This document shows, in pieces, positions 3,230-64,000 of a stretch of DNA of 64,000 nt. The stretch covers positions 434,001 through 498,000 of the forward strand of contig JAUKUA010000002.1 of NCBI GenBank assembly GCA_030549175.1, given 5' to 3'. The notes under the pieces were generated by a model. It saw only the letters and a list, made by a program, of their open reading frames with translations, searched no databases and was not told where the DNA came from. The stretch is from Lasiosphaeris hirsuta. Lineage: Eukaryota; Ascomycota; Sordariomycetes; Sordariales; Lasiosphaeriaceae. Within the stretch, counting starts at the first letter, position 1. Each line of letters starts with the position of its first letter. The position numbers were made by a program, and so were the translations under genes.

Positions 3230-5686
3230 CTACTGATCCGCAACTAAACACTCCCAACTCCCGTACAAAACGAATAGGGCCCAGAAGTAGGGTTCCGGCT
3301 TCTTCTTCCGTACGGCTAGCGCCGCTCTTTGAACTGCTTTGGCGACGTCGAATAGCACACAGCCCGACACAGAGCCTGCTCCGCCAATGTTAGATGGAAA
3401 CGCGGCAAACAGTTCTTCCATAAAATTCTTCCCCGCCGCATCTGAACATTTCCACAAGGTGCCGAGGGCTGAATTAACCCCCGCAAGCATGAGCATTGGA
3501 AGCAACCCCGTCGGCTCCTCCCCTGTCCTGAGCTCCTGTTTTGCGGATTCGCAGGCAATCATGATAAAGAGCACGACCCCGAGACGCGCCTTTAGGATTT
3601 CACGGGCGGTAAGGTTTCGGCTGGGCGAGGTGGTGTTATCGTCTGGATTCAGGACCAGGGCTGATTTCAGCGGATCGGAGGCATTGAACACTGCGTGGCC
3701 ATGGTAAATGGCCAAGCCAGGTTGTTGGGTCGCTGTCAGAAACGTTTTCTTGGTCACGTTCTTTCCAATATACGGATCGACGCCCAGTCGCTCCGCTAGA
3801 CTCCTCGACGATAACTCTGAAGCCGGCCTGTCGCATGACGGATTCCCAAACACTGCAGACTTTTTCAGTTGCGCTGGAACCCCTGGTCGCCGGAAGAGGC
3901 AGTGATGTAAGACCGCAAGGCTAGGCGCATAGACCACAGGGTTGCGCTCAATCAAGAGCTGGCCATCGATTTGAAGCGCGTGGAGAGGCAGACCAGCCAG
4001 AACTCCAGCGGGGCAGAAGACCAACACATCTCCAGAACCGCTCTTAGTTGATAAAGGTGCGACTAGAGTGTCCAATTCTCTCAGTCTTTCGTTCGCACGG
4101 GGTTGCCGTAAGTATTCAGCCTTGAGGTTTGACTGCATCCAAAGCCTGACTTCCCTTATAGAGAGGGGGAGCTTCGCAACCGCTGGCTCATGGCCGGGTC
4201 GAACCGCAAACATGTAAATGGAGTTCTCGATAACGACCCAGTCAACGCAGACAACATCCTCGCGAGCGGGAAACATGGCTTTCAGGCGGCCCTCGGTCAG
4301 GCTGGCCATTCCCCTGAACAGACGCATGTCGTACAACGCTTCCACGCTGCTCATCTCTTTGCGGCACTCGACAAGCTTCTGTCGTATCGAGAGCCTGTCA
4401 TGCAGAGGTGCCAGCTTGCACTGACGCACCAGCTCGGCCTCCCGATCTAGCAGCTCACGAGCCCGACCGTTGCCGTGGGCCGTGCCCAACATGGAGCCGT
4501 CGATCGGCTCTTCAAAGCTGAGCAGGTCGAGGAAGGCTCGGGCTTTACCCCTTTGAACCCAGCACCAGGCGTCACCCGTCTGCCCTGCTGCAAGGTTGAG
4601 GCTAACACCAAGCGTATAGATGCATGCCTCTCGCTCCACTAAAGCGGCTTTGTGCCGGAGCATCTCCTCGTCCCTTTGAAGGGTCATGTCGCTCCGCATG
4701 ACATTCAAGACTTCTTCAGCCGCAGCTATCTCTTTGAGCGCATAACCAAGGGCTTCCGTTTGGCCCAGGCGATGGGCATGCTCCCACACCAAAGCTTTAT
4801 TGTACCGGCACCTCACGAACTGGAAACCCATGCCCCAGTCAAGCATATTTTTCTCCACATTCTCCCAATCCCCTAAGAGGCCGTTGAGGATTTTCTCGAT
4901 ATCGTCGGTAGGCATGTCCCTGGCGAGGTATGCTTCATAGATCCAGAGCTGATAGTTCAGCGCCTTCTTTTGCTGTGCTTTCGCTGCTTGCCGATTCATA
5001 TTAACTTGAGAAAACAGGGACTGTGCGAGATCCAGGCAGCTGACTGCGGTCGCAAATTCGCCTGCCCTGGAGTGCGCGTCTGCGGACCGAAACTGAATGT
5101 CGGCCAAGGCTGCGATCTGCTCCTTTCCCTTCGGCAGAAACTCGAGCAGGTCCGTAGCCCTTGCCAACCAAGCTAGCGACTCCTCAGCGGCTACCTCTTT
5201 TTCGGGCGAGGCAATCCGCTCGCTCTTGATGTTCTCAACTTGAGATAGAATGCCAAGCATCTCAATCTGGTCATCCACTTGCCGTCCGCCTCCGGTCTTC
5301 TCAACCCAGCCAGTCACAAAGGCGTTAAACTCGTCGAAGTCTGTAGGTCGAGGGGCTTCCCCGGATACCAGTTGGTCTCGCCAGGCAATAGTCAGGCCCT
5401 TAGCTGCCATCCAAGATAGTTCAACGTTTTCCATGGCCTGGGCCTTGTCCAAGGCCGCCCGGGCCCAAGCAATAGCAACATCCCAGTCTCGCTGGGCCGA
5501 ATAGATGGTCGAGAGTAAAATTTCGCACTGGAAAGAGAGATCTTGTCGAGCTGTCACGGCGAGAATCGCTTTCAACCCCTCCGCAACCGCTTCATTTTGG
5601 TCGCCTCGCAGGGAAGCTTGGGCAAGTGCAGAGTATCGCATGAGAAGGGCGGATTCATCCGTATTGACGGATCCAAGAGAAGACAT
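3230..5686 (-). CDS. TPR-CHAT domain protein (caspase-like protease fold)
   Basis: An 818-aa protein in one exon. Residues about 20-400 are helical repeats of TPR type, with a TPR-like stretch (WCWVQRGKARAFLDLL) just before the catalytic half. Residues about 520-815 form a CHAT domain (caspase HetF associated with TPRs), a clan CD cysteine-peptidase fold. It shows the substrate-pocket strand (VFCPAGVLAGLPLHAL), the catalytic His region (IYHGHAVF, H662/H664), the catalytic Cys in ACESA (C712) and the downstream GVNSALGTLWKCSD strand. Both catalytic positions are present, so it may be an active protease. CHAT proteins in bacteria and fungi activate partner effectors by cleavage, often leading to cell death. 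It is transcribed away from the gene at 6298 across a 0.6-kb shared promoter, and a HET gene follows. Physiological target unknown. Confidence 0.85.
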   Translation of the reverse strand: MSSLGSVNTDESALLMRYSALAQASLRGDQNEAVAEGLKAILAVTARQDLSFQCEILLSTIYSAQRDWDVAIAWARAALDKAQAMENVELSWMAAKGLTIAWRDQLVSGEAPRPTDFDEFNAFVTGWVEKTGGGRQVDDQIEMLGILSQVENIKSERIASPEKEVAAEESLAWLARATDLLEFLPKGKEQIAALADIQFRSADAHSRAGEFATAVSCLDLAQSLFSQVNMNRQAAKAQQKKALNYQLWIYEAYLARDMPTDDIEKILNGLLGDWENVEKNMLDWGMGFQFVRCRYNKALVWEHAHRLGQTEALGYALKEIAAAEEVLNVMRSDMTLQRDEEMLRHKAALVEREACIYTLGVSLNLAAGQTGDAWCWVQRGKARAFLDLLSFEEPIDGSMLGTAHGNGRARELLDREAELVRQCKLAPLHDRLSIRQKLVECRKEMSSVEALYDMRLFRGMASLTEGRLKAMFPAREDVVCVDWVVIENSIYMFAVRPGHEPAVAKLPLSIREVRLWMQSNLKAEYLRQPRANERLRELDTLVAPLSTKSGSGDVLVFCPAGVLAGLPLHALQIDGQLLIERNPVVYAPSLAVLHHCLFRRPGVPAQLKKSAVFGNPSCDRPASELSSRSLAERLGVDPYIGKNVTKKTFLTATQQPGLAIYHGHAVFNASDPLKSALVLNPDDNTTSPSRNLTAREILKARLGVVLFIMIACESAKQELRTGEEPTGLLPMLMLAGVNSALGTLWKCSDAAGKNFMEELFAAFPSNIGGAGSVSGCVLFDVAKAVQRAALAVRKKKPEPYFWALFVLYGSWECLVADQ

Positions 5687-6297
5687 GTTAGGCGAGGATC
5701 AAGACTCCATGCCAACGCGCGGGGGTCTTTGGTGACCCGTAAGTTGTGCTGGTGTTCTCATTCCATGGGGGAAGATGGGGAGGCCTAGCGGCGGCGACGG
5801 AAAGTCAGTAGCCACTCACTTGATGTCGCACAAAAAAAAATTGAAAATTTCGGGTGCGGGGTCTCCTGTTTGGCATGGCCTATTTGTACAGTATGCTCAG
5901 GCTATAGTAATATGCATTGGACAGCTGTGCATGTGCAACAAATTCTTTTTTCTTTTTTTCATTTGGCTTTAGGGCCGAGTCTATCTACTGGGTACCTCAT
6001 GGTTTCTGGGCGGGCAGACGGGCTGGAGAAGCCGGCGCGCAATGTTTCGATTCCTCGCGACCCAGAGAAAGATACCGGGAGCAATGATGTCGAGCCAAAG
6101 AAGCCAACCCTCTGAAAAGCCCTGGGTCAATGGACGAGCCAGCCAGGGGCTTAGTATGTATCTATATGTTGAGCCCACTGTGCAAATAACCCACCTCTTC
6201 CACTATCACGTGTCTTGACTTGGCAGTTCACATTGCAGCATTTCTCCTCCCGCATCCCCTCATCAGCTGGATCTCAAAAACGGGCCAAAGGCCTCGA
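5687..6297. promoter_or_regulatory. Shared divergent promoter region
   Basis: About 610 bp between the start codons of the CHAT gene (minus) and the unknown gene (plus). It contains A-tracts near 5830 and T/C-rich stretches near 5945 but no recognisable coding sequence. Co-regulation of the pair is inferred from geometry only. Confidence 0.4.
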
Positions 6298-7086
6298 ATG
6301 TTTACGGACAACATGGAGACACTCTCAAGCAATGATCTTCAGCTCAATCTAAACTTCGAAGCCGATGTTGATGCCGAGGAAGAGCTCGCCGAAGAGGAAG
6401 AGGATGAATTTGTCGACCCCTCTCTCATCACCGATATTGAGATCAGAAAATGCCGCCTGCTAGCGACCATACAATGTGTCGAGTACGGCGCCATCTCCCT
6501 GAGCCCAAACAACACAGCTCCGGGCATGCTGCTGTGCATCGACTTCATCTTCCACCCTCTCAAGACTCGCGTGAAGGAAGCCTACGTCGAGATCAGCCTA
6601 AACAAAGGTACAATCGCAGTGCTTCAACCCGAGAGCATCGACGACGACGAGACGACCGAGACGGTACGCCAAAAGCTCAGCGGCAACTTTACGATCGGCT
6701 ACGCTCCCGCCGGTACCGAGGGTGCGGTTGGCGCTGAGCGCGAGAGCGAGAGAGAGAAGACGTCGGAGCGGCGTATTCGGGGATCCGGAGTCCACACCGA
6801 TCGCGCCGTGTGGACGTTGCGGGAGAATGGCGGGAACAAAAAGGGCATCCACCTCAAGTTTATGGCTGTGTTGATCGTACAGCCCCGAGCCCCCGACGGC
6901 AGTCTCGAGGTGGACCTAGAGATTCGAGTCAAGCTTGGCCCATCGATTGGTAACGGACTAGGTATCAGGCGCATCCTCGCACGCAGCACAAAACGGTTTG
7001 ACGGCAAGACGACGTCCGGCTTCCGTCCTGCCGAGTTGGACATTAGCAAATCATGGTTTAACAAAATCTTAAGGCTAGAAGCGTAA
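6298..7086 (+). CDS. Uncharacterised fungal protein paired with CHAT protease
   Basis: A 262-aa single-exon protein of a type that recurs in fungi but has no assigned function that I know. The N-terminus has a very acidic run (residues 20-37, mostly D/E). The middle is strand-rich (ATIQCVEY, LLCIDFIFHP, EAYVEISL). Near residue 200 there is a recognisable block 'AVWTLREN' then 'KKGIHLKFMAVLIVQ', followed by another strand (LEVDLEIRVKLG) and a basic C-terminal tail. The pattern suggests a beta-sandwich. No signal peptide or membrane helix is visible. The frame is open slightly further 5' but without an ATG. The ATG at 6313 is an alternative start. Its divergent pairing with a CHAT protease makes it a candidate protease substrate or effector. 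I do not recognise gasdermin motifs, but the size is similar. Confidence 0.7.
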   Translation: MFTDNMETLSSNDLQLNLNFEADVDAEEELAEEEEDEFVDPSLITDIEIRKCRLLATIQCVEYGAISLSPNNTAPGMLLCIDFIFHPLKTRVKEAYVEISLNKGTIAVLQPESIDDDETTETVRQKLSGNFTIGYAPAGTEGAVGAERESEREKTSERRIRGSGVHTDRAVWTLRENGGNKKGIHLKFMAVLIVQPRAPDGSLEVDLEIRVKLGPSIGNGLGIRRILARSTKRFDGKTTSGFRPAELDISKSWFNKILRLEA

Positions 7087-7515: not shown

Positions 7516-9585
7516 CTACCGTAGCGAAACAATAGTTTTCCCCACATTTACCAATTCTCGGAAATAAGGATAGTCCTTCGCGGAGAACTGGAAAATGCCA
7601 ACCCTTTGATAAAGATCGCTCCCCTCGGCACATGTTAAAACCAGACCATCCAGAATCGTGTCGGCGGTAGACAAAACACACAGGACTACCTGCGGCACAT
7701 CATCTCCCTCAAGTGGCGCATCGAAGATGGCGTCGAAATCCCGCTCCCCAAACCCTTCGAACCGCCTCCCCTCTGTCGCTACGCCTCCTCCTTCAATGAT
7801 AGGAGCATTGTGAATGAGGCTCAGGACCCGTAGTTCCTTTCGCGAATCCACAGGCTTATATTCCGCCTTGAATAGCCAGCCCCGCACACGTGCGACAGCC
7901 TCTTTCACCTCCCCAAAAATAGCATCGGGGTCATCTGGCGGCACGACGTCCAGGCCCACCAGCTCCGTTCGCGGAACATGCAGCGTTAGGCCCGGCCCGT
8001 CAGATCTCCTGACGAATACGCCACCGTAGGAGAGGCTACCATCAACCGAGGCCCACGACCAGCTCGGCGCGCCGCGGAACGCTGCCGGCCGGGGGAGGCG
8101 CGAGTTGGTGCGCCACAGGAGACCGCCAATTTTGATGTGCTCTTTCCACATCCCAGCGACGTAGGTGTGTAATGACTCTTGTTGGAAGGCCTTTGCGATG
8201 CCTGCCACAGCTGCCAGCTTGTCGGTCGTGCGTGTGAGTCCCGCATCGGTATACGCGGCAGTGAAATTGTCCCAGTGAGACTTCCACCTCTTCAGGTCGC
8301 CTTCGTCGCCGCTGGCAGCCAAGAAGTTCCAGTTGCGGGGCACCTCGCCGTGCAGCGTCCGCTTACAGTACGTCCAGATGGCCAAGTCGTCAAATCGGTT
8401 GGCAAACCCGGTGCTCTCGAGCCACAGGCAACGCCCGCACTCCCAGGCTAGCTGCGTGTCTCCCAAGTAGACGGTACGGCGCGAGAGGAATCTCTCCTGC
8501 CAGATCCAGCCTCGCTTCAGCACCGGCGGCCGCCGCTCCGTCAGGTTAAACATGCGACTCCCGAACCCGTTCGACCGCGACAGGTACATGAAGATGCGCC
8601 CGAGGCTGGGGTGTTCAATCGAAAAGGCAGCGCGGTAGAGCCCCAGCACGTTGCGGCTAGTTAAGCACACGTCTGTTGCGGAGCCGCCCACGGCGGCGAA
8701 GTTGAGAGTTGCGTTCTGGTACACAGCAGCCATGCGGCCGGCTTCTCTCTTCCAGTCCGCCTCGCTACCCTGGATAATACACAGCGTGTCAATCCAGATG
8801 TAGCGGATGCCGACGGCCGCTGCGACGTCGATAGTCTCCCGGAACTTGCGGTACAGTGCGTCTAGTGGAATGGTCTGCTGAAGCCGTTCGATATTTTCCG
8901 CCGTGAGCTTGAACATCTCGGCCGTTCCCCAAACATGGCTCACACTCGCGTACGAGATGGATGCTGCCTCGGCCACCTCCAGGTCCTGTGTGTGGACGAG
9001 CTTGAGTGACCCGTCCTCTTGGATATGAAGCAGCCGCGTGGGCAAATCGGACCCGAAGTTACGGTTGCAGAAATCTCCATGCTTGGTTCTACACCTCATC
9101 AGCCAGCTGGCGATGTGCGACGCCACCCACAGCCTCGTTAACGCGGGTGTCGTAGTCGCATTCGTAGGGCACCAATGAGGGTGGCTGAACAGCGTACCGT
9201 TATCAACTATGTGAGGTATGAACGAAGGAAAGATGGGTATCCCTGGGTCTTTCGTGGTAATGACCAATTCTCCAAGTGGTGACTGATCCTCTGTCACGAT
9301 GTCCAACTTCATTGGCGTTTTTCGATCCTTAACAACAAGCTGCAGATGCGCCTCTTGCCCCTGAGACGGTGCCTCGCCGTTTGCGATGGCGGATTCCTGG
9401 ATCTCGGACAGAATGATGGAGCAAATGGGGCAGCCGCCCTGTGATCTTGCGATCACTGAGCTTATGATGCCAATGTTTTCTGATTCAGAACTGTTGAGGA
9501 CGCTCGAGATGGCTTCGCTGCATCTTTGACACCAATTGCTTTCGAGTGAGCCACTTGGGTCTTGATCGGTAAAGCTCGACTCCAT
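7516..9585 (-). CDS. HET-domain (heterokaryon incompatibility) protein
   Basis: A 689-aa protein with a classic HET domain at about residues 210-360. The ordered motifs are YASVSHVWG, then YIWIDTLCIIQGSEADW, then MAAVYQNATLNFAA. HET domains are cell-death-inducing modules (TIR-like in structure studies) used in fungal non-self recognition. Upstream of the HET domain are two CxxC pairs (CQRC near residue 20 and CPIC near 65), common in HET proteins and possibly a zinc site. The C-terminal 300 residues are HET-associated sequence with no separate NACHT, WD40 or ankyrin domain. I chose the ATG at 9585. The open frame continues 34 codons upstream, but those residues are hydrophobic and unlike the family. 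Together with the CHAT gene it forms a putative allorecognition/cell-death island. Confidence 0.88.
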   Translation of the reverse strand: MESSFTDQDPSGSLESNWCQRCSEAISSVLNSSESENIGIISSVIARSQGGCPICSIILSEIQESAIANGEAPSQGQEAHLQLVVKDRKTPMKLDIVTEDQSPLGELVITTKDPGIPIFPSFIPHIVDNGTLFSHPHWCPTNATTTPALTRLWVASHIASWLMRCRTKHGDFCNRNFGSDLPTRLLHIQEDGSLKLVHTQDLEVAEAASISYASVSHVWGTAEMFKLTAENIERLQQTIPLDALYRKFRETIDVAAAVGIRYIWIDTLCIIQGSEADWKREAGRMAAVYQNATLNFAAVGGSATDVCLTSRNVLGLYRAAFSIEHPSLGRIFMYLSRSNGFGSRMFNLTERRPPVLKRGWIWQERFLSRRTVYLGDTQLAWECGRCLWLESTGFANRFDDLAIWTYCKRTLHGEVPRNWNFLAASGDEGDLKRWKSHWDNFTAAYTDAGLTRTTDKLAAVAGIAKAFQQESLHTYVAGMWKEHIKIGGLLWRTNSRLPRPAAFRGAPSWSWASVDGSLSYGGVFVRRSDGPGLTLHVPRTELVGLDVVPPDDPDAIFGEVKEAVARVRGWLFKAEYKPVDSRKELRVLSLIHNAPIIEGGGVATEGRRFEGFGERDFDAIFDAPLEGDDVPQVVLCVLSTADTILDGLVLTCAEGSDLYQRVGIFQFSAKDYPYFRELVNVGKTIVSLR

Positions 9586-10789
9586 AATAGAGCCGAAGAT
9601 ATGAGCCAGGAAAAATTGCACAAAAAATTGACAAAGGTTGCTTGGGAAGAAGAGATGTCCTTTTTGCCGTAACGCTTCTCTCGTCACTTTTTAGGGGGCT
9701 TGCGCAGAAAACCCCGCATCAGGATCTCGTGTTGAGGATCCGATGGAAGCCACTAGCAACTATCATCGGGAGCGGCGTGGCTACCTAGTTGGACAAATAA
9801 GAGCTTCTTATCCTAAGCCAAAAGAGGCTCCTCCACCCTTTTGGCCAGCCCAACCGGAAAATCCCCACTTCTCGTTTGTCACAGACAGCAGGGTCAGCGT
9901 GCTTAGACGCATTGGTGGCGCTTGTAGTATTCTCGTGGCATCGAATAGGACCGAGCCACGACCCACCCTAGGATCGACCACCGGCGGCTGACTTTGACAG
10001 GCGTTCCTGTAACCCCCGATGATCCCTAACATATGGCTAATCAGACTATGGTACGCGCAGCAATGATGAAAAGTCTAAATCACGGCGCCGTATGATCATC
10101 GCAAGAGGCCAATTAGCACCAGCACCTTTCCACTCAATTATTCCCTAACGATTGCTGAAAGGCACCTATAGGCACAATAACCGAAGCTGAGAACCAAAAA
10201 AACTGCTACTTCCGTCCAAGTCACCGAGAAATACTTCAGCCCCCTAGCGTATAGAGAATTCAGTTCCGGAGGGGCGGAAGCTAATCCCATGGATCAGATA
10301 AATGAAATTAATGACAGCATATCACGCCGACAAAGGGAACGCAGCGCGAAAGGGGGTGACCCACTCGGTACGGGACACTCCTAACACCACAGAAGACGCC
10401 CAGAGGCCAGTTCGGGAAACCCACTACGAGGTCTAAGAACGTGCCTTTACTGATGACCAGTTCATCAAGCTCCGGAGACCCCCCAGTGGCAGCCAGAAGA
10501 AGTGCAACGGCGTCGGGAGACGTGTGCTGTCGTAGTTCTCGAAGCTCTCCCACCGCTCGGACACCGGACCGTCCACCGTGAGCAAGTAGACGTGGCGGTC
10601 CTAGATCTCCTCCGGATGGGGAGGTGTCTTACCGGTACCGTCTCTACCTTATTCTCCATTACTCGCTACATAATCCTTCACATCGCCTTCTTTACACTCA
10701 AAGGAACTTCGACAGCTCTCGACGCCAAACCATACTTACATCCCAGAGCTATATCCCACAGAGAATAATAAAGAGCCTCTACGATGATG
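9586..10789. other. Intergenic with a possible gene relic
   Basis: No intact gene. On the minus strand, about 10600 to 10440 translates to fragments such as 'DRHVYLLTVDGPVSE' and 'TPLHFFWLPLGGL', interrupted by a stop. This looks like the remains of a coding gene whose family I cannot name. Confidence 0.3.
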
Positions 10790-55017: not shown

Positions 55018-56511
55018 TCAAACACCCAACCGCACCCCCCGACTCCCAGCCTCACTGATAAACTCAACCCACTTCCTCAACCCATGCCCCTGCTCCCCGT
55101 TGTACGTCACCGGCGCATCCTTCCGCCCAGCAGCGTACATCTTGATGGTCGGAAACCCCCTAATATCACGATCGAGCGTATCGTTGTGATCAAGATTCAT
55201 CGTCGCCACCGTCAGCCGACCTCGCTCGCCGGCCGCCAACTCAGCCAGCTTCCTCCACTGCGGCGCCAGCACGTCGCACCCGGCGCAATCGTCCCGGCTG
55301 TACTCTACTACCACATCCCGATCATTGTTCAACACTACCTCCCGGTACGTCTGCCCGACAACCTCGACAAGTGGCCCGTCATCCTCAGGGACCGGCGCCG
55401 ATTTGAGCGTGGGCTCGAGCGTGCGGGCGAGGTACGCGTCGATAAACGCCGCGATGTCGGTGAGCGATGGCGCCGAGAGCGCCGCCCACGGGTTGGGCAG
55501 CAGAGGGTACTTGAGGTTCAGGGCGAGGCTGTGCAGCGCGAGGGCGGGGAAGACGCCCCGGGGCAGGTGCATGTCGGCGAGCAGGCGCGGGAAGTCCGGA
55601 CCCACGACGGTAGTGAAGGTGATGGTGGGGTGGGCGCGCGCCAGCGGCGTGAGGGCCGTTGCGGCTTGCGCGGCCGAGGTCGCGGATGGGAGGATGAGGT
55701 ACGCTAGAGTCGTGTCGGGATTCGAGAGGAAGTCGTTGTGGGTTTCCCAGTGGACTTCCGGTACCAGGGGCTGCGTCGCCGTGTGGATGGAGTCGCGTAA
55801 GGTGGTGGAGGTCTGCCAGGCTTGGGGGCCGAGGAGGGTGCGTTCTTCGGCGACGTGCTTGAAGACGAGGGTGCTGGGCGTGGTCACGCCTCTGGCTTCG
55901 ATTACTGATTTATCCGTTGTTACGGAGAAGACAAACTGGTCTTTTAGCTCCCTCGCAACAGCCTCAAACTTTTCACGAGATTCAGAGTCGGCCGAGTCCA
56001 AAAAGGCAGCGACAACGACGCTATTCTCGCCTCGCAAGGACCGTAGCAATGCCTCACTATCTGCAGAGCTGACTATCGGCAGATGTTGTCGTCTAAGGAA
56101 GTCCAGAATGTCCTTCTCCCGCAGCGGACCGTGGTAAAGCTTGAAGTCGTCTGGGCCGTTGAACAGAAATAGACTTGGAAACCGGGGTATGCGAAGCTTC
56201 TGGCAGAGTTCCACAACCGCATCTTCATCATCGATGTCGAGTCTAGCGCACCTGATCCCAGAACCAGCGGCATCGAGAGTTCTGGACAGCTTTGAAAGCG
56301 TGTTAGTGTCTGTGCCGGGTAAAGCTATCCGGAATGTGTGGTGACTTACCTGGTCGTAAACAGGAGCAAACCGCACCCAATGCGGTGCCTCGGGGTGGAA
56401 GATGGACATCAGGACTGTGTCATGGCGACTGATGAACTCGACGGCATCGTTGCCGCTGCCAAACTCGTACTGGAAAGTGCTTGGCAGGGGAGTGAATTCT
56501 TTTTTAGTCAT
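55018..56511 (-). CDS. PDI-like thioredoxin-fold protein
   Basis: Exons 56511-56350 and 56289-55018 give 477 aa. The 60-bp intron (GTAAGT donor, CTAAC branch, AAG acceptor) removes an in-frame insertion that is unlike the family. The layout is that of a protein disulfide isomerase with about four thioredoxin folds. The first domain has lost the CxxC: where PDIs have WCGHC the text reads HPEAPHWVRFAPVYD. The last domain keeps a redox pair, CAGC (C389/C392, in DDCAGCDVLAPQWRKL), with the cis-Pro motif RGFPTIKMY. There is no obvious signal peptide and no HDEL-type retention signal (it ends RGVRLGV), so either it acts in the cytosol or an upstream leader exon is missing. Its 5' end faces the 3' end of the Cys-rich precursor, so a role in that peptide's disulfide chemistry is conceivable but unproven. 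Confidence 0.75.
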   Translation of the reverse strand: MTKKEFTPLPSTFQYEFGSGNDAVEFISRHDTVLMSIFHPEAPHWVRFAPVYDQVSHHTFRIALPGTDTNTLSKLSRTLDAAGSGIRCARLDIDDEDAVVELCQKLRIPRFPSLFLFNGPDDFKLYHGPLREKDILDFLRRQHLPIVSSADSEALLRSLRGENSVVVAAFLDSADSESREKFEAVARELKDQFVFSVTTDKSVIEARGVTTPSTLVFKHVAEERTLLGPQAWQTSTTLRDSIHTATQPLVPEVHWETHNDFLSNPDTTLAYLILPSATSAAQAATALTPLARAHPTITFTTVVGPDFPRLLADMHLPRGVFPALALHSLALNLKYPLLPNPWAALSAPSLTDIAAFIDAYLARTLEPTLKSAPVPEDDGPLVEVVGQTYREVVLNNDRDVVVEYSRDDCAGCDVLAPQWRKLAELAAGERGRLTVATMNLDHNDTLDRDIRGFPTIKMYAAGRKDAPVTYNGEQGHGLRKWVEFISEAGSRGVRLGV

Positions 56512-57078: not shown

Positions 57079-57731
57079 CTAAGCCTCCTCGGCAGTCCGG
57101 GCCGTGATCTCGTCGGTCTCGACCTCCTGAACCGCCTCGACCTTTCCGTCCTTGGTGAGGCGATTGTAGCAGCGGGGCTTATTACCACACGACCCGCCAC
57201 CGATGCCAATCCATCCCTGGCGGCGCTCCACTTCCGGACTGGGCTCCGAGACGGGCTCCGGGCTGGGGACCCCCGGCTCGACGACCCTAGCGTAGCACGC
57301 CGCCTTGGTGCATGTCTGTCCGCCGATTCCGAGCCACGCGCGCCGGGTAAGGCCCTTCTCGGTGAGGTCCACCTCCTCGACCGCCTCGACCTCGTCGTTC
57401 TGGGTGAGGCGGTTGTAGCAGCGCGGCTTGTTGCCGCACGACCCACCGCCGATGCCGATCCACCCCTGGCGGCGCTCCACTTCCGGACTGGGCTCCGAGA
57501 CGGGCTCCGGGCTGGGGACCCCCGGCTCGACGACCCTAGCGTAGCACGCCGCCTTGGTGCATGTCTGTCCGCCGATTCCGAGCCATGCGCGCTTGCCGAC
57601 AGCGTCTAGGGGGGTTAGCTTCTGGCTGGTGGGAGTTATGGCTACTACTTGGACATACCAGTGGGGAGCGCTGTCAAGGTCGGGGCTAGGATGGCGGTCA
57701 GAGTAAAGGCAATGATGGCCTTGGCATACAT
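57079..57731 (-). CDS. Secreted Kex2-site repeat precursor peptide (putative RiPP precursor)
   Basis: Exons 57731-57659 and 57605-57079 give 199 aa. The 53-bp intron has GTATGT, GCTAAC and CTAG. Residues 1-20 are a signal peptide (MYAKAIIAFTLTAILAPTLT). Dibasic Kex2-type sites lie at K29-R30, R69-R70, R112-R113 and R152-R153. Each is followed by a module: type A at 31 and 114 (AWLGIGGQTCTKAACYAR, C-x4-C) and type B at 71 and 154 (QGWIGIGGGSCGNKPRCYNR, C-x5-C). The spacers are acidic and Pro-rich. Residues 31-92 and 114-175 are identical. Fungal dikaritin precursors have this architecture: secretion signal, repeats, Kex2 sites. Two UstYa-type genes lie just beyond its promoter. Alternatives are a mating-pheromone-like precursor or a secreted Cys-rich effector. 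No toxicity is implied by the sequence. Confidence 0.8.
57091..57588 (-). repeat. Two 249-bp intragenic repeats
   Basis: Copy 1 (57588-57340) and copy 2 (57339-57091) each encode one A module, spacer, Kex2 site, B module and linker, although the last linker has diverged. The A-module and spacer DNA is nearly identical, while the B modules differ by about nine synonymous third-position changes. Confidence 0.85.
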
Positions 57732-58548
57732 TTTGTTGGGAAGGTTGAAGAGTGAGTGTTGGAAACTATTTGAGCTAGCTGCTGTTGATAATGTAGATGG
57801 AATGAGTTTGCGAGTTGCTGGTACCGGTGCTGGTTGAAGCTTGCTGATTGCGAGTTGCAGCTGTGAGTTGTAGCTGTGAGCTTGCTGAGGTGGCTTGATG
57901 GCGATGATGATGTGAACGTGGAGACTCTGAAGCTTCCATTGTCCCTCCTTAAATGTCTTTCCTATCGTCACCTTCGGGGAGTAATGACGCCTAGTAACTA
58001 CACCTTGGTGAGAAGGGCCATATTCGCATCAGCCTAGTCATCTGCCGCAAGGCATTCTCAACTTCCTCCCCAGCGCCGCCGTTGATGATGTAGATGTGTC
58101 TCGGTGGCAGAGCTCATAACGCGGCTGCTTTGCCTCCATATCCTGCTATCCTATCACGATCAGCCAATATTCTGACCTTCCGCAGCGTATGCTGGCACTT
58201 TCCAATGTCGGTACTTTACATTTGTTCGCCAAATAACATTCAGGAATGGACGCCACATACTCATTGCGGCTGTGGTCGCGCGGCTATTGTCGAAAGACAC
58301 GGCCTGCCGGGGGCCCAAGGCGGACTGTGGGGTTTCCGGCAAACAAGGAAATGTGGCGGTGCGAGAGGCAGTGACAGTCTTGACAGCCATCTTATCCGGA
58401 CTCGAGAAGGCAGTCCTCGAGAATGGCATCAGTGGGAAGGTGGGTAAGGCGCCTCAGATATGTCTCCAGTGTGCTCCCGCCATGTTTCCCCGACACTGAC
58501 ACTCCGACTTCTTTTCATGTCAGACTCTACAGAACTCGAAATCACAGC
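57732..58548. promoter_or_regulatory. Divergent promoter, precursor / UstYa-like 1
   Basis: About 0.8 kb between start codons facing away from each other. A TATA-like word lies on the minus strand at 57947-57955 (CATTTAAGG), about 215 nt upstream of the precursor ATG. The geometry favours co-regulation of precursor and oxidase, but no specific operator was recognised. Confidence 0.4.
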
Positions 58549-59588
58549 ATGGCAAACAAGCTTCACCAAAACGCTCTCGACGAGGAGAAGCTCCTCGACA
58601 GACAAAGCCAGGATGACTTCTCCCGGGGTGATCTCACTCGGCCAAGAGACAGGACTCTGAATGGCTTGGGAGTCTTTGTTCCACAGCTCTCGGCCAATCT
58701 CTCTGGCTTCCTCGTCCTTTTCTTTGCCAATCTCTTGTTTTGCATCCTCCTGGTCAGGGCAACCGCCACCAGCAGGACCGCGCCGCCAAAGCCAGAAGAG
58801 CCGTGGGAATACTATTGTACGTTTCGATGTGGCATTAGTATCATGATGTGTTCCCGCTAACTTGACCCATAGCACCCCTCCACTCCCGGCTCAACCTCCC
58901 CTTCCACACGCAGCAGATCGACGCCCGGCTACTCCCCAACATGTCGTCAGGGGGCATGGCCATCTTCAGCTCACCGCCCAGTCCGGCGGTCGACGCAGCG
59001 TGGGCGCGCATGGAGAAGAACATGATCATCGGCCTCTCGCGCGACGAGCTCCTCGCTCTCGGAAAGGACCCGTCGGCGGCCGTCAAATTCTCGCCCTCCT
59101 GGCCGGATGCAGGCGCAGGGGAGAAGTACCTGGGTGTACTGGACGTGTTCCACCAGATCCACTGCCTCAACATGCTCCGGACGAATCTCGTAATAAATTA
59201 TAACTACTATTGGGGGGATGAGTATGGCACGACTCCGCCCGTGTTCCGCGACATCCACCTGAGCCACTGCGTGTCGGTGCTGCTGCAGAGCATCGCGTGC
59301 CACGCCGACCTGGGCGTCGTCACCCACGTGTGGCGGTCCGACACGCCCGTGCCGTATCCCGACTTTGGCATTAACCGGCAGTGCCGCGACTTTGACGCCT
59401 TGGTGCGGTGGCGCGACGAGAATGACATTCCCGAATCGGCAAAAAAGTTTTCCGAGTATACCGACGTTGCCAAGGGGGATGTCGTTCAGCCCCCAGAGGA
59501 GGGGATCGAGGGTTTGGATGCCTTGGCTGACGAGGTTAGGGATGGTGAGCCCTTGAGGCGGTTCAAGATCCAGGGGTGCAACGCATGA
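58549..59588 (+). CDS. UstYa/DUF3328 family oxidase-like protein 1
   Basis: Exons 58549-58816 and 58873-59588 give 327 aa. The 56-bp intron has GTACGT, GCTAAC and ATAG. A soluble charged N-tail (1-45) is followed by one membrane helix (51-69, LSGFLVLFFANLLFCILLV). The lumenal/extracellular domain carries both family signatures: HQIHC (H183-C187, in VFHQIHCLNMLR) and HLSHC (H218-C222). UstYa-type proteins in ustiloxin, phomopsin and asperipin pathways catalyse oxidative cyclisation or desaturation of Kex2-released peptides in the secretory pathway. The HxxHC pairs are thought to bind metal. Between the signatures is the usual Tyr-rich strand (NYNYYWGDEYG). The C-terminus has an acidic extension beyond the common family end. 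It lies 0.8 kb from the precursor, divergent. Confidence 0.85.
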
Positions 59589-60373
59589 GCCCTAGGCTTT
59601 CCCTGTGTGTAACTATATAAGGCGGGGTAGATAGTTCTGTAAGATATCTGAATCAAGCCTGCGGCGTACCACATATACCTCAAGCATAACGGGCCCGAGC
59701 CCGGCAGGTCGTCCCACCGCTGGTGCTGTGCTACCTATATTGCCGAGGAATTTCTCAGCTTTATTTTCCGTGCTATGGTTGATAATAGCCTTCAACGCGC
59801 CGCCGCCACACGGCCGGTGAGGCTGTGCCGCAATGCTGCGTTATCAAATCCAGCCGGCGAAAGGGCTAATCAAGCCAGTAGTCTCGGCATTGGTCCATCG
59901 GATACCCCAACGAGATGCGTGTGTTTCTTCACTCCGGCTCTTTAGCAGAGTGCCGGGAAAGGACCTTTCCACACCACATTCACACCATGGCTATGTATTC
60001 ACTACAGCATGGCGTAGCTGAGGCGTAAACAATCCTTCATTTCAGTAGGCAGAGCAGGTATGTAAATTGTGGCCGGCTGGTGCTTTGACATCACGTAATG
60101 CATATCAACGAAGTAGCGAGACAGCCCAGGGATCCCTTGGTGCGTGTTGAACGCTGCCAACATAGGTAACTATATCCTAGGGAATCTAAGCCACAGTAAG
60201 GCATACTACTGCAGCCTCCTCGAAACGAGATATGGTGTGCCCATAGAGTTGGTAGCAGAAGGCCGTGTTGGTGAACTTCATGTAGAATCGTCCATGGCGC
60301 CTCATATTATGTATCTTCTGGGTTCCACTTGCAACTCTCCTTTTGATCTCTCTTTCCACAGTATCCCTCTGTA
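59589..60373. other. Intergenic / promoter of second UstYa-like gene
   Basis: About 0.8 kb with no recognisable coding sequence. Confidence 0.4.
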
Positions 60374-61382
60374 ATGCCTCCCACAATGCCCTCATACTCT
60401 CCCGTCAGTCCTAGCTCTCCGGACTTTGAGTCTTGCTATGGCGACGAAAAAGACGAGCCACTCCTGCGGCCTAACCATGGCTGCCGCTCCAAACAGCCAA
60501 GACAATGGAAAATGCTCGCCGCGACAGCCATAAACCTCGTCATATTCACCACTTCACTTATGCTGTTCATTTGTTCGCGTTCCTCCGGGTTGAACGCTGA
60601 ACTTCGAAAGGCCTCGACGTGGAGTAAGCGCCTCTACATTCTCCTTGGTAATTAGTGCACATTGAAAGTACTGACCTATCGCAGGCCCGATCCACGACCT
60701 CGTCGACTTCGGCCTCCACACCACCGTCGTCCACGGCAGCCTCTTCCCCAGCACGCCAACCCCCTCGGTGCCCCAACAATTCCCAAACCCCGCAGCCGAC
60801 GCCGTGTGGGATGAGTGGGAAACCACACGGATCCTGCCCATCACGCGCGACGACGTCGTGCGGCTGGGCAAGGACCCCGAAACAGCCGTCCGGCTCGACG
60901 CGGCCACGTTCGGGCTCGGCGAGGACATGTACGCGGCCGAGCTGGACGTGTTCCACCTGCTGCACTGCCTCAACACGCTGCGGCAGCTCGCGTACCGGGA
61001 CTACTACAACGAGACGTACGAGCCGCAGGCCGACATGGACAAGTCCACCTTTTACGAGGTACACCTGAACCACTGCGTCGGCATGCTCGCCGAGGCCATC
61101 CAGTGCAGCGGCAACGCCAACCTGGCCACAGTGCACTGGTTCGAGGGCTTCCGCGGCCCGACGCCTGATTTTAGCATCGAGCGCAAGTGTGTTGACTTTG
61201 ACGGGCTCACTGACTGGCGCAAGAAGAACACCATAGATTTAGGTCTGTTTACGCGTGCCACGGCGAAGATGCCGAGGGGTCAGAAGAAGGAGGCTGACCC
61301 GTTGCCCAAGTGGTGGCCGGGCGGCTGGAAGACAGATGCTAAGTGGGATGGGGGGCATGAGCACACCAGTAGCAGCGTGTGA
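60374..61382 (+). CDS. UstYa/DUF3328 family oxidase-like protein 2
   Basis: Exons 60374-60623 and 60685-61382 give 315 aa. The 61-bp intron has a GTAAGC donor, CTGAC branch and GCAG acceptor. The N-tail is S/P-rich and acidic, the membrane helix is 47-67 (MLAATAINLVIFTTSLMLFIC), and then comes the conserved 'WSPIHDLVDF' entry to the domain. The signatures are HLLHC (H174-C178, in VFHLLHCLNTLRQLAYRDYY) and HLNHC (H210-C214). The region after the second signature (LATVHWFEGFRGPTPDF, then RKCVDFDGLTDWRKKN) is typical of UstYa proteins. It differs from protein 1 in most positions outside the signatures, so the two probably do different steps. ATG 60386 is an alternative start. Same strand as protein 1. 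Substrate inferred from the neighbouring precursor only. Confidence 0.85.
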
Positions 61383-62345: not shown

Positions 62346-63247
62346 ACTGATACAGCTATGTCTACAGAACCTGCGCCTCATCGAAACTTCGTGGATAGAG
62401 CTATTGCCACAGCTCAAGACCGAATTTGACACAGTTCATATGCGAGAAGGCTCCATTCGCGGTATGATCTGAGGGGAGAATGAACACGCAGAGACAAACG
62501 GGTTCGAGGAAACATATATTTGCGAAACACAAGGTTGGCACTAATTTGGTCTTGCCATTATCAAGTAGTTCATGTCCCCGGATGCAAACTGAATGCTCGC
62601 TCAATGGCGAGACTATGTTAACCCCCCCCTCCCCTCCCCATCCCCCCAATACAGTTTCTAGGGGCAGTACAGCGGTAAATTCATGCGCAGGAGAGCGTTG
62701 AGATGGGTTAGGTCTCTTGTGTGTTGATGCTTGGGGAGTGTCTTCTGCTACTAGGTTGCCGCACAAGTCGGGTGCCGGGCCGGGAGTAGATAGAGCCCTC
62801 CGTGGAGGTGTCAGAGGTTCTCAGTAGCTGCGGATATAAGAGTAGGTACTTTTGGTTCTCTGCATCTTGCAGAGCAGCTCTCCTCTCAATACAATAACTT
62901 CTTCAGTACCTTATTGCTATCTATCTTCTTGTGTTTGAGCATCCACTTAAAAGGTGTCATTGGGCCACACAGCCGGCTAATACAAACTGGAATGCCGTGG
63001 GGTGATAAGCGCAGACGGCAGAGGCGACAGTCTTGAGGCGATGCACTTGGATAAAGTACGACCTACCTCGGTACTAGGGAAAATGCCTTGTGAGCAGCGC
63101 CACATTTCAGTCTTGGAAGATGCCATACTAATACCCCATCAGCCCCTGGATTGAAAATAGGGTCGTAGTGCCACTTGCCTTGCTTATATGAAGCGCAATT
63201 AGTTCCCGAGACTCGACTCTACATTTAGGCCGGCTCAACCTCAAGAC
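62346..63247. other. Intergenic, no gene recognised
   Basis: Includes a C-rich tract at 62620-62648. A possible promoter for the partial gene that follows. Confidence 0.35.
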
Positions 63248-64000
63248 ATGATGCGTCCATCCCTAGGTGTCTTCCTCTGCATGACATGCACCGCACACGC
63301 TCTTCCGCCTCTCCCTTCCAATACCTGTCCATCTGCCTGCGCCGACTCGCCTCCCTCGGAATGGACCGTCCACAACTACGACGACCTCAAAAACTGCAAA
63401 GAAGGTCTCATCTTTACACCCGCCGAACTTGACCACCCAGATCATCCACGCCGGCTGCGGGCCTGCACACCTACCGCGACAGGAACAAATACCCAGGTCT
63501 GCGGTCCGCCGTCGCCAAGTTCCAAGATCAAAGCCGTCGCCTCGGTGCAACTCACAGGGGCCCACAACGGCCCCGACGCCGCCGCCCAGGCAGCGCCGGC
63601 GTCCCTCTACGGCGCTGTGGCTGCCATGCAAAGCTATCATGAGCGGGACACCTGCAGCCATGGCAGGCCCGTTTACGGGTACTACCGGGGCGCGCTGGCG
63701 GGCGTCTACCTCGGCGATGCGTTTGACCCGATGTCGTTGGCAGCGCTGAGCGAGGCGTTGCTGAGCAAGATCAAGCGGGGTGCTGGGACTTGGACGGCGC
63801 AGGTTTGTGGAGACGGAGGAGGACCGACCCTTAGTTTTGGTTTTGTGGTCAACACGTCGGGTAATGTCACGGCTGTGCGGGAGGCGGTCGAGACTTGGAC
63901 GCGCGGGGGGTGTTGGGGTGGCTATGAGATGGAGGAGAGGGTCGATGTTGTGGTTTGGGAGACTGCGGAGAAACCGGGGGCCTTGGGGTCGGCCGGGGCT
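63248..64000 (+). CDS. Partial gene: killer-toxin-like GH18 chitinase N-terminus
   Basis: From ATG 63248 (or 63251) the frame stays open for 251 codons to the end of the window. It starts with a signal peptide (VFLCMTCTAHA). The mature part has a Cys-rich N-domain (SNTCPSACADSPPSEWTVHN, then DDLKNCKEGLIF, then RLRACTPTATG). Next comes a region with 'LYGAVAAMQSYHERDTC', 'YGYYRGALAGVYLGDAFDP', 'WTAQVCGDG' and 'TLSFGFVVNTSGNVTAVREAV'. I recognise this layout as the N-terminal half of fungal subgroup-C (killer-toxin-like) chitinases, where LysM and GH18 domains follow. Those domains lie outside the window, so the assignment rests on the N-domain only. The enzymes in this group act on cell-wall chitin. 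It is not obviously connected to the peptide cluster. Confidence 0.6.
   Translation, partial: MMRPSLGVFLCMTCTAHALPPLPSNTCPSACADSPPSEWTVHNYDDLKNCKEGLIFTPAELDHPDHPRRLRACTPTATGTNTQVCGPPSPSSKIKAVASVQLTGAHNGPDAAAQAAPASLYGAVAAMQSYHERDTCSHGRPVYGYYRGALAGVYLGDAFDPMSLAALSEALLSKIKRGAGTWTAQVCGDGGGPTLSFGFVVNTSGNVTAVREAVETWTRGGCWGGYEMEERVDVVVWETAEKPGALGSAGA

Follow-up and report, generated by a model that had tools for sequence, protein, structure and literature searches.

A probable dikaritin-type RiPP cluster with pheromone-like two-cysteine cores in Lasiosphaeris hirsuta

One precursor gene on the minus strand and two UstYa-family genes on the plus strand form a cluster of about 4.3 kb in Lasiosphaeris hirsuta (order Sordariales; genome of 44.4 Mb on 14 contigs). 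The stretch analyzed, hereafter the window, comprises 64,000 nucleotides (C7:434001-498000), and coordinates refer to it unless another contig or locus is named. The presence of the precursor together with the two UstYa genes is confirmed, and the limits given in the original prediction are right, 57079 being the stop of the precursor and 61382 the end of the second UstYa gene. The arrangement probably represents a dikaritin-type cluster for a ribosomally synthesized and post-translationally modified peptide (RiPP) with pheromone-like cores carrying two cysteines each, a reading held with modest confidence.

The precursor gene (57079..57731, minus strand) encodes 199 aa in exon 1 (57731-57659) and exon 2 (57605-57079, including the stop), separated by a single intron (57658-57606) of 53 nt with GT-AG ends and a CTAAC close to its 3' end. 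Exon 1 (57659..57731, minus strand) encodes a signal-peptide-like segment, MYAKAIIAFTLTAILAPTLTALPT, with a Kyte-Doolittle mean of 2.08 across 15 residues, and under this splice model a signal peptide is likely by hydropathy alone. The NCBI gene model P0001 (281 aa) contains the same modules and differs by other splicing and an upstream start, so that the signal-like segment is absent from it. Behind the hydrophobic N-terminus follow KR-AWLGIGGQTCTKAACYAR (core A, 57535..57588) and RR-QGWIGIGGGSCGNKPRCYNR (core B, 57409..57468), and then both again, each behind RR (core A at 57286..57339 and core B at 57160..57219), with acidic spacers. All four cores were located on the minus strand by reading frame and by motif position. 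The four modules behind dibasic sites that had been predicted (KR, RR, RR, RR) were confirmed by the reading frame. In our own scan, which does not use published code, they account for at least three repeats between Kex2-type dibasic sites. Each core of about 18-20 residues forms the front of a module of about 40 residues with an acidic tail after it, and the two kinds of module occur twice each. The cores start with WLGIGGQTC or WIGIGGGSC, their cysteines are spaced as C-x4/5-C, and a single Tyr stands beside the second Cys in all four; the proposed motif W-[LI]-G-I-G-G-x-[TS]-C-x4/5-C-Y fits 4/4 modules.

UstYa-1 (58549..59588, plus strand, 327 aa; exons 58549-58816 and 58873-59588) contains the motifs HQIHC and HLSHC and matches Pfam UstYa (PF11807) with 171.5 bits (3.2e-50), while UstYa-2 (60374..61382, plus strand, 315 aa; exons 60374-60623 and 60685-61382) contains HLLHC and HLNHC and matches it with 158.4 bits (3.3e-46), the cut-off being 25. 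In both genes a single intron is present, and both proteins carry two HxxHC motifs and a single hydrophobic helix at the N-terminus. The H, H and C of HxxHC were invariant in 23/23 aligned sequences, an alignment made of 21 hand-chosen members of the 47 UstYa-1 relatives and the two window exons. Hydropathy, PF11807 and this alignment agree with the earlier description of two genes with one transmembrane helix and two HxxHC motifs each. UstYa-1 and the precursor gene point apart, with 817 bp (57732..58548) between their start codons, so this divergent region may provide shared control of both.

With Kex2-repeat modules, adjacent UstYa/DUF3328 genes, a core Tyr and a likely signal peptide, the locus resembles the dikaritins ustiloxin, phomopsin and asperipin-2a (ust-RiPS; PMC7329392). 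This dikaritin-type anatomy, as claimed at the outset, fits the definitions given in PMC7329392 and PMC12048977. The UstYa/DUF3328 family is described as having a dicopper site for oxidative cross-links (PMC12186524). The locus differs from dikaritins in its cores with two Cys, about 18-20 residues long in modules of about 40, whereas published dikaritin repeats typically have 13, 14 and 8 residues (PMC7329392), and in that no tyrosinase occurred among the window open reading frames (ORFs) scanned. The repeats, the UstYa genes with HxxHC and the Tyr, together with the likely signal peptide, would place it as a dikaritin-type cluster with an unusual core. The words cysteine, Cys and disulfide are absent from the main text of PMC7329392, whose tables may list such core types. 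The core strings WIGIGG, WLGIGG and GIGGQTC had no match in the literature searched, which covers articles apart from their supplementary files, and GIGGGSC occurred only in an unrelated paper. The core, called unfamiliar before, is so in the sense that the core strings are absent from related literature and no precursor relative was found beyond the precursor itself.

Two units of 83 codons each, arranged in tandem, make up the precursor, and comparison of these units separates the core from its surroundings. Core A and its spacer differ by 1 silent site across codons 31-70 and are otherwise the same DNA (57469-57588 vs 57220-57339), as if recently homogenised between units; the contrast of 1 silent site here with 9 in core B points to gene conversion or unequal exchange. 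Over 20 codons, copies 1 and 2 of core B are separated by 9 silent differences and by no replacement, corresponding to proportions of differing silent (pS) and replacement sites (pN) of 0.66 and 0, and the chance of zero replacements among nine by site proportions is 1.7e-6. Codons 93-111 behind core B reached a pS of 0.47 and a pN of 0.41. Silent to replacement codons were 9:0 in core B vs 2:12 in codons 93-111 (Fisher p 6.7e-5), and because the last codons of the second unit form the protein C-terminus and are perhaps not homologous to the spacer, a narrower contrast with codons 93-107 only is given as well (9:0 vs 2:8, p 7.1e-4). Since core B took 9 silent and no replacement differences while the spacer behind it takes replacements, core B, and not the spacer, is conserved as a peptide. 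This bears on the possibility that the locus is decaying or silent, the relic of a precursor beside UstYa genes whose product is no longer made. The lack of a precursor relative elsewhere and an NCBI gene model without the signal-like segment would suit such a relic, but the frame is open through four modules, core B is preserved as described, and both UstYa frames are open with intact motifs, which makes a relic very improbable.

Pairing of precursors and UstYa genes recurs in this genome. In 44.4 Mb, 41 UstYa exon matches were grouped by hand into 21 places, and the surroundings of each of the other 20 places, in stretches mostly of 9.5 kb, were scanned for repeats between dibasic sites. Kex2-repeat precursors were found near 5 of these 20, or 6 of 21 with the window locus, and introns and other site types could hide further ones from the scan. 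They stand beside UstYa matches in L019 (repeat DATQYYD-KR), L020 (TVIPDKQKYE-KR), L030 (DGIKIKAVNTY-KR), L032 (RHHKGKKTNG-KR) and L034 (RQGGKKVTFLPKDY-KR). Like the window locus, all five hold their precursor within about 2.5 kb of the UstYa match. Unlike it, they have no Cys in their repeated cores (in L030 a lone Cys occurs in an irregular segment ahead of its second repeat), and the dibasic site immediately follows their conserved part. The scan also accepted two extra frames at the window precursor and one in L032, all overlapping the same repeats; a 71-residue frame in L017 and a 107-residue frame in L032 had only two alike segments. The rest of the window and 30 kb of flanking sequence (L014-L016) contained no other such ORF, and block-shuffling 27 stretches five times each produced none either; this control is small, made of the rest of the window, the flanks and shuffles of 3-base blocks. 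Several UstYa matches each were also seen at C13:706-715 kb and C11:3845-3860 kb, where the repeat scan found no precursor.

The cores resemble the alpha-pheromone of the same genome, a likeness that the original prediction overlooked together with the shared position of the two, its dikaritin-type anatomy and unfamiliar core being supported. The canonical alpha-pheromone gene lies on C1 (L040, about 4998.2-4998.7 kb), starts with MKFTLPLT and contains three copies of KR-WCTIRGQSCW. Its presence led to rejection of the window precursor as the genome's own alpha-pheromone gene. WLGIGGQTCT and WIGIGGGSCG are each identical to WCTIRGQSCW at 5 of 10 positions in register (W, I, G, C and Q or S), and the cores start directly behind the dibasic site, as the resident pheromone core does. 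As in alpha-pheromone precursors of the Ccg-4/Ppg1 type, the core stands behind KR, contains W..I.G.[ST]C and two Cys, and a PEP-rich acidic spacer follows core A. The window cores depart from these precursors by Leu or Ile at position 2 in place of the first Cys of W-C-x3-G-x2-C-W, by Thr or Gly at position 10 in place of the last Trp, by a new downstream Cys-Tyr and by the missing KxKR end; the precursor further differs by an intron after the signal-like segment and two adjoining UstYa genes. No STE13-type XA/XP dipeptide repeats stand behind its dibasic sites, and its modules begin AW and QG.

The likeness was quantified at 7028 dibasic sites in six-frame ORFs of 29 stretches (315 kb). Anchored at these sites, the four cores scored 29, 29, 25 and 25 against the pheromone core; among the other 7024 sites, none had 5 identities, none reached 29 and one reached 25. 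Shuffling of the cores gave p values of 0.004 for A and 0.01 for B; with W and C held constant, these became 0.011 and 0.02. Shuffling core A ahead of its own spacer gave p 0.0024 against the pheromone module. The W-x2-I-x-G-x-[ST]-C codon pattern, which also matches a few other residues at [ST], occurred at 44 places in the genome (reversed control 31), and among these only the pheromone gene (3) and the window precursor (4) had close-together repeats. These two also share the order of a conserved part after the dibasic site followed by a variable spacer, whereas in the other five precursors the conserved part precedes the site. A single module taken from each of those five scored -7 to 2 against the pheromone core, compared with 29 and 25 for the window cores. 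Whole-precursor alignment was set aside as proof of kinship: the window precursor scored 82 against the pheromone precursor, an unrelated PEP-rich ORF 136 and another ORF 71. The five other precursors scored 22-34, and the maxima of 1000 core-block and 1000 full shuffles (80 and 71) did not reach 82. Because composition drives much of the whole-precursor score, the dibasic-anchored core test was relied on.

Descent of the precursor from a copy of an alpha-pheromone precursor is, on the sequences compared, at most roughly an even bet, and several points weigh against it. Module B with its spacer scored only 28 against the pheromone module, the order of the spacer contributes nothing to the likeness (p 0.30), and without anchoring, 4 of 337,521 unrelated 10-mers scored at least 29 and 12 had at least 5 identities. 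The tests of cores A and B are not independent, because A and B are copies of each other, and descent is suggestive only, because the likeness was noticed first and tested afterwards. The same dikaritin-type cluster could have arisen without pheromone descent, with W..I.G.[ST]C as convergence or chance in short Gly/Cys-rich peptides. This version, which takes up a part of the probability given to the dikaritin-type reading, is by itself unlikely. It is favored by the mere 5 identities per 10 positions, the equal scores of unanchored 10-mers, the PEP-rich composition that inflates the whole-precursor score, and a precursor intron without counterpart in the pheromone frame, which is open from its ATG. 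It has to explain, in turn, why the register behind the dibasic site is the same in 4/4 modules, why 0/7024 other anchored sites match as many residues, and why the modules of the other five precursors stay so far below the window cores against the pheromone core.

A half-way case has been described before. In PMC7329392, cyclic peptides are proposed to be later than linear ones such as pheromones, and one such case is cited. It is presumably represented by the Rutstroemia Ccg-4 homolog PQE12560.1, which like the window precursor combines pheromone-type repeats with DUF3328, there two genes away, and for which a pheromone-to-cyclic transition is proposed (PMC7329392). By the description in that source, pheromone-like and other Tyr fragments are mixed in PQE12560.1, unlike the window precursor, where 4/4 cores are altered and the true pheromone is separate. 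In Sordaria macrospora, young fruiting bodies show strong expression of the pheromone gene ppg1; a cluster with three DUF3328 genes is also differentially expressed in them, and its expression drops in the pro1 mutant (PMC3472292). The two are not simply coupled, as ppg1 is raised in the same mutant (PMC3472292).

A different product would be an unmodified secreted peptide, cut by Kex2 and closed by a disulfide only, that serves as a mating or hyphal signal or as an effector, with the UstYa pair acting elsewhere; its precursor would probably also stem from a duplicated alpha-pheromone precursor. The position behind the dibasic site and the W..I.G.[ST]C shared with the resident pheromone suit such a peptide, as does the rule that pheromone-type precursors lack a DUF3328 partner: a DUF3328 gene lies near 22% of 7878 Kex2-repeat precursors and near hardly any mating factor, and 98.6% of 216 putative fungal pheromones have none in their vicinity (PMC7329392). 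The 47 relatives of UstYa-1 against none for the precursor, and a lineage-restricted gene for a protein disulfide isomerase (PDI)-like protein adjoining it, point the same way. Against it, two UstYa genes lie within 4.3 kb of this precursor, one of them divergent from it, which departs from the pheromone rule, and on C1 about 590 kb separate the resident pheromone gene from the sole UstYa match listed there. With Cys-2, the final Trp and the KxKR end of the pheromone lost, a pheromone receptor would be unlikely to accept the core. Taken together, an unmodified peptide appears doubtful.

The dikaritin-type reading is itself opposed by several results. Among 801 candidates from the protein database, no relative of the precursor was found except itself (B0H67DRAFT_550033 of Lasiosphaeris hirsuta). 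UstYa-1 had 47 relatives, including proteins of Niveomyces insectorum (53%) and Trichoderma asperelloides (60%); the best named ones belong to Niveomyces, Trichoderma, Ophiostoma, Hypoxylon, Cordyceps and Thozetella, and those of the presumed Sordariales Diplogelasinospora and Echria reached only 41% and 39% identity. This imbalance speaks mildly against a conserved pair. Gene callers are known to miss precursors of this build, and since P0001 itself lacks the signal-like segment, the absence of relatives is weak evidence. The Pfam scan covered far from all window ORFs. In the ORFs and proteins it included, no tyrosinase or transporter domain appeared and the vicinity of the cluster showed no P450, the single P450 match lying at 182-952. 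A dibasic site at the C-terminal end of the core is absent from the window precursor and present in the pheromone and the five other precursors. Finally, UstYa enzymes also act in non-RiPP pathways (PMC12048977).

If the dikaritin-type reading holds, the precursor would enter the secretory pathway, as its N-terminus suggests, and Kex2 would cut at the KR and RR sites to release two kinds of module of about 40 residues, with trimming by Kex1, as for known precursors with this architecture. The two Cys (C-x4/5-C) would most likely close a disulfide in the endoplasmic reticulum or Golgi, and the two membrane-bound UstYa copper oxidases could, by the chemistry of their family, oxidise core side chains, most likely the Tyr by the second Cys or the front Trp. 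The acidic tail would then be removed, perhaps by a cut at the lone Arg that follows the core, before a small cyclic peptide is secreted. Because no dibasic site closes the core C-terminally, the tail may instead stay or act as a recognition segment. Every chemical step is what we infer beside the observed anatomy, core B selection and pheromone likeness. For the thioether suggested earlier, nothing in the cluster speaks besides the two Cys, and it was set aside.

Monoisotopic masses computed for AWLGIGGQTCTKAACYA are 1712.801, 1710.786 with a disulfide and 1708.770 after loss of another 2 H. In the same order, they are 1868.903, 1866.887 and 1864.871 for AWLGIGGQTCTKAACYAR, 1965.894, 1963.878 and 1961.863 for QGWIGIGGGSCGNKPRCYN, and 2121.995, 2119.979 and 2117.964 for QGWIGIGGGSCGNKPRCYNR. 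The full modules have computed masses of 3909.892 and 4435.117.

Combined with descent, the dikaritin-type reading becomes a tentative proposal that an alpha-pheromone precursor was duplicated, its core rewired and the copy placed beside two copper oxidases, possibly yielding the backbone of a cyclic, disulfide-bearing RiPP. The rewiring, equally tentative, would comprise loss of the first Cys and the last Trp and gain of the new downstream Cys-Tyr. If true, this would be a near-complete case of the pheromone-to-natural-product transition put forward in 2020, in which one genome holds both the type of ancestor and the descendant. Because a pheromone-like precursor lies next to two modifying enzymes here, with the genuine pheromone gene retained at another place in the genome, that published proposal is directly testable. 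Two-Cys cores would extend UstYa substrates to disulfide-carrying peptides, of which, to our knowledge, none is known. For some fungal RiPP precursors, a pheromone-type ancestry has been proposed (PMC7329392).

Among the neighboring genes, the PDI-like protein (55018..56511, minus strand) lies about 570 bp downstream of the precursor on the same strand. It contains a Thioredoxin_6 match and a last Thioredoxin domain with CAGC, no signal-like N-terminus, and an N-terminal third without Pfam match. Among the matches listed, relatives above 30% over most of its length were only those of Echria macrotheca (65%), Cercophora newfieldiana (49%) and Cercophora sp. LCS_1 (47% and 34%), and its gene might, on weak grounds, be a further member of the cluster. 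A zinc carboxypeptidase of the M14 type (PF00246, 2.3e-20) is encoded at L014:2584-3345, at window coordinate of about 65584 beyond the window end and about 4 kb past UstYa-2; such an enzyme could trim basic ends. Between them, at 63203-64000 (plus strand), lies a Cys-containing protein that looks secreted by eye and has no Pfam match. Farther away, a CHAT-domain protein (3230-5698) and a HET-domain protein (7516-9690) are encoded on the minus strand; proteins of these two types are associated with cell death or incompatibility in fungi.

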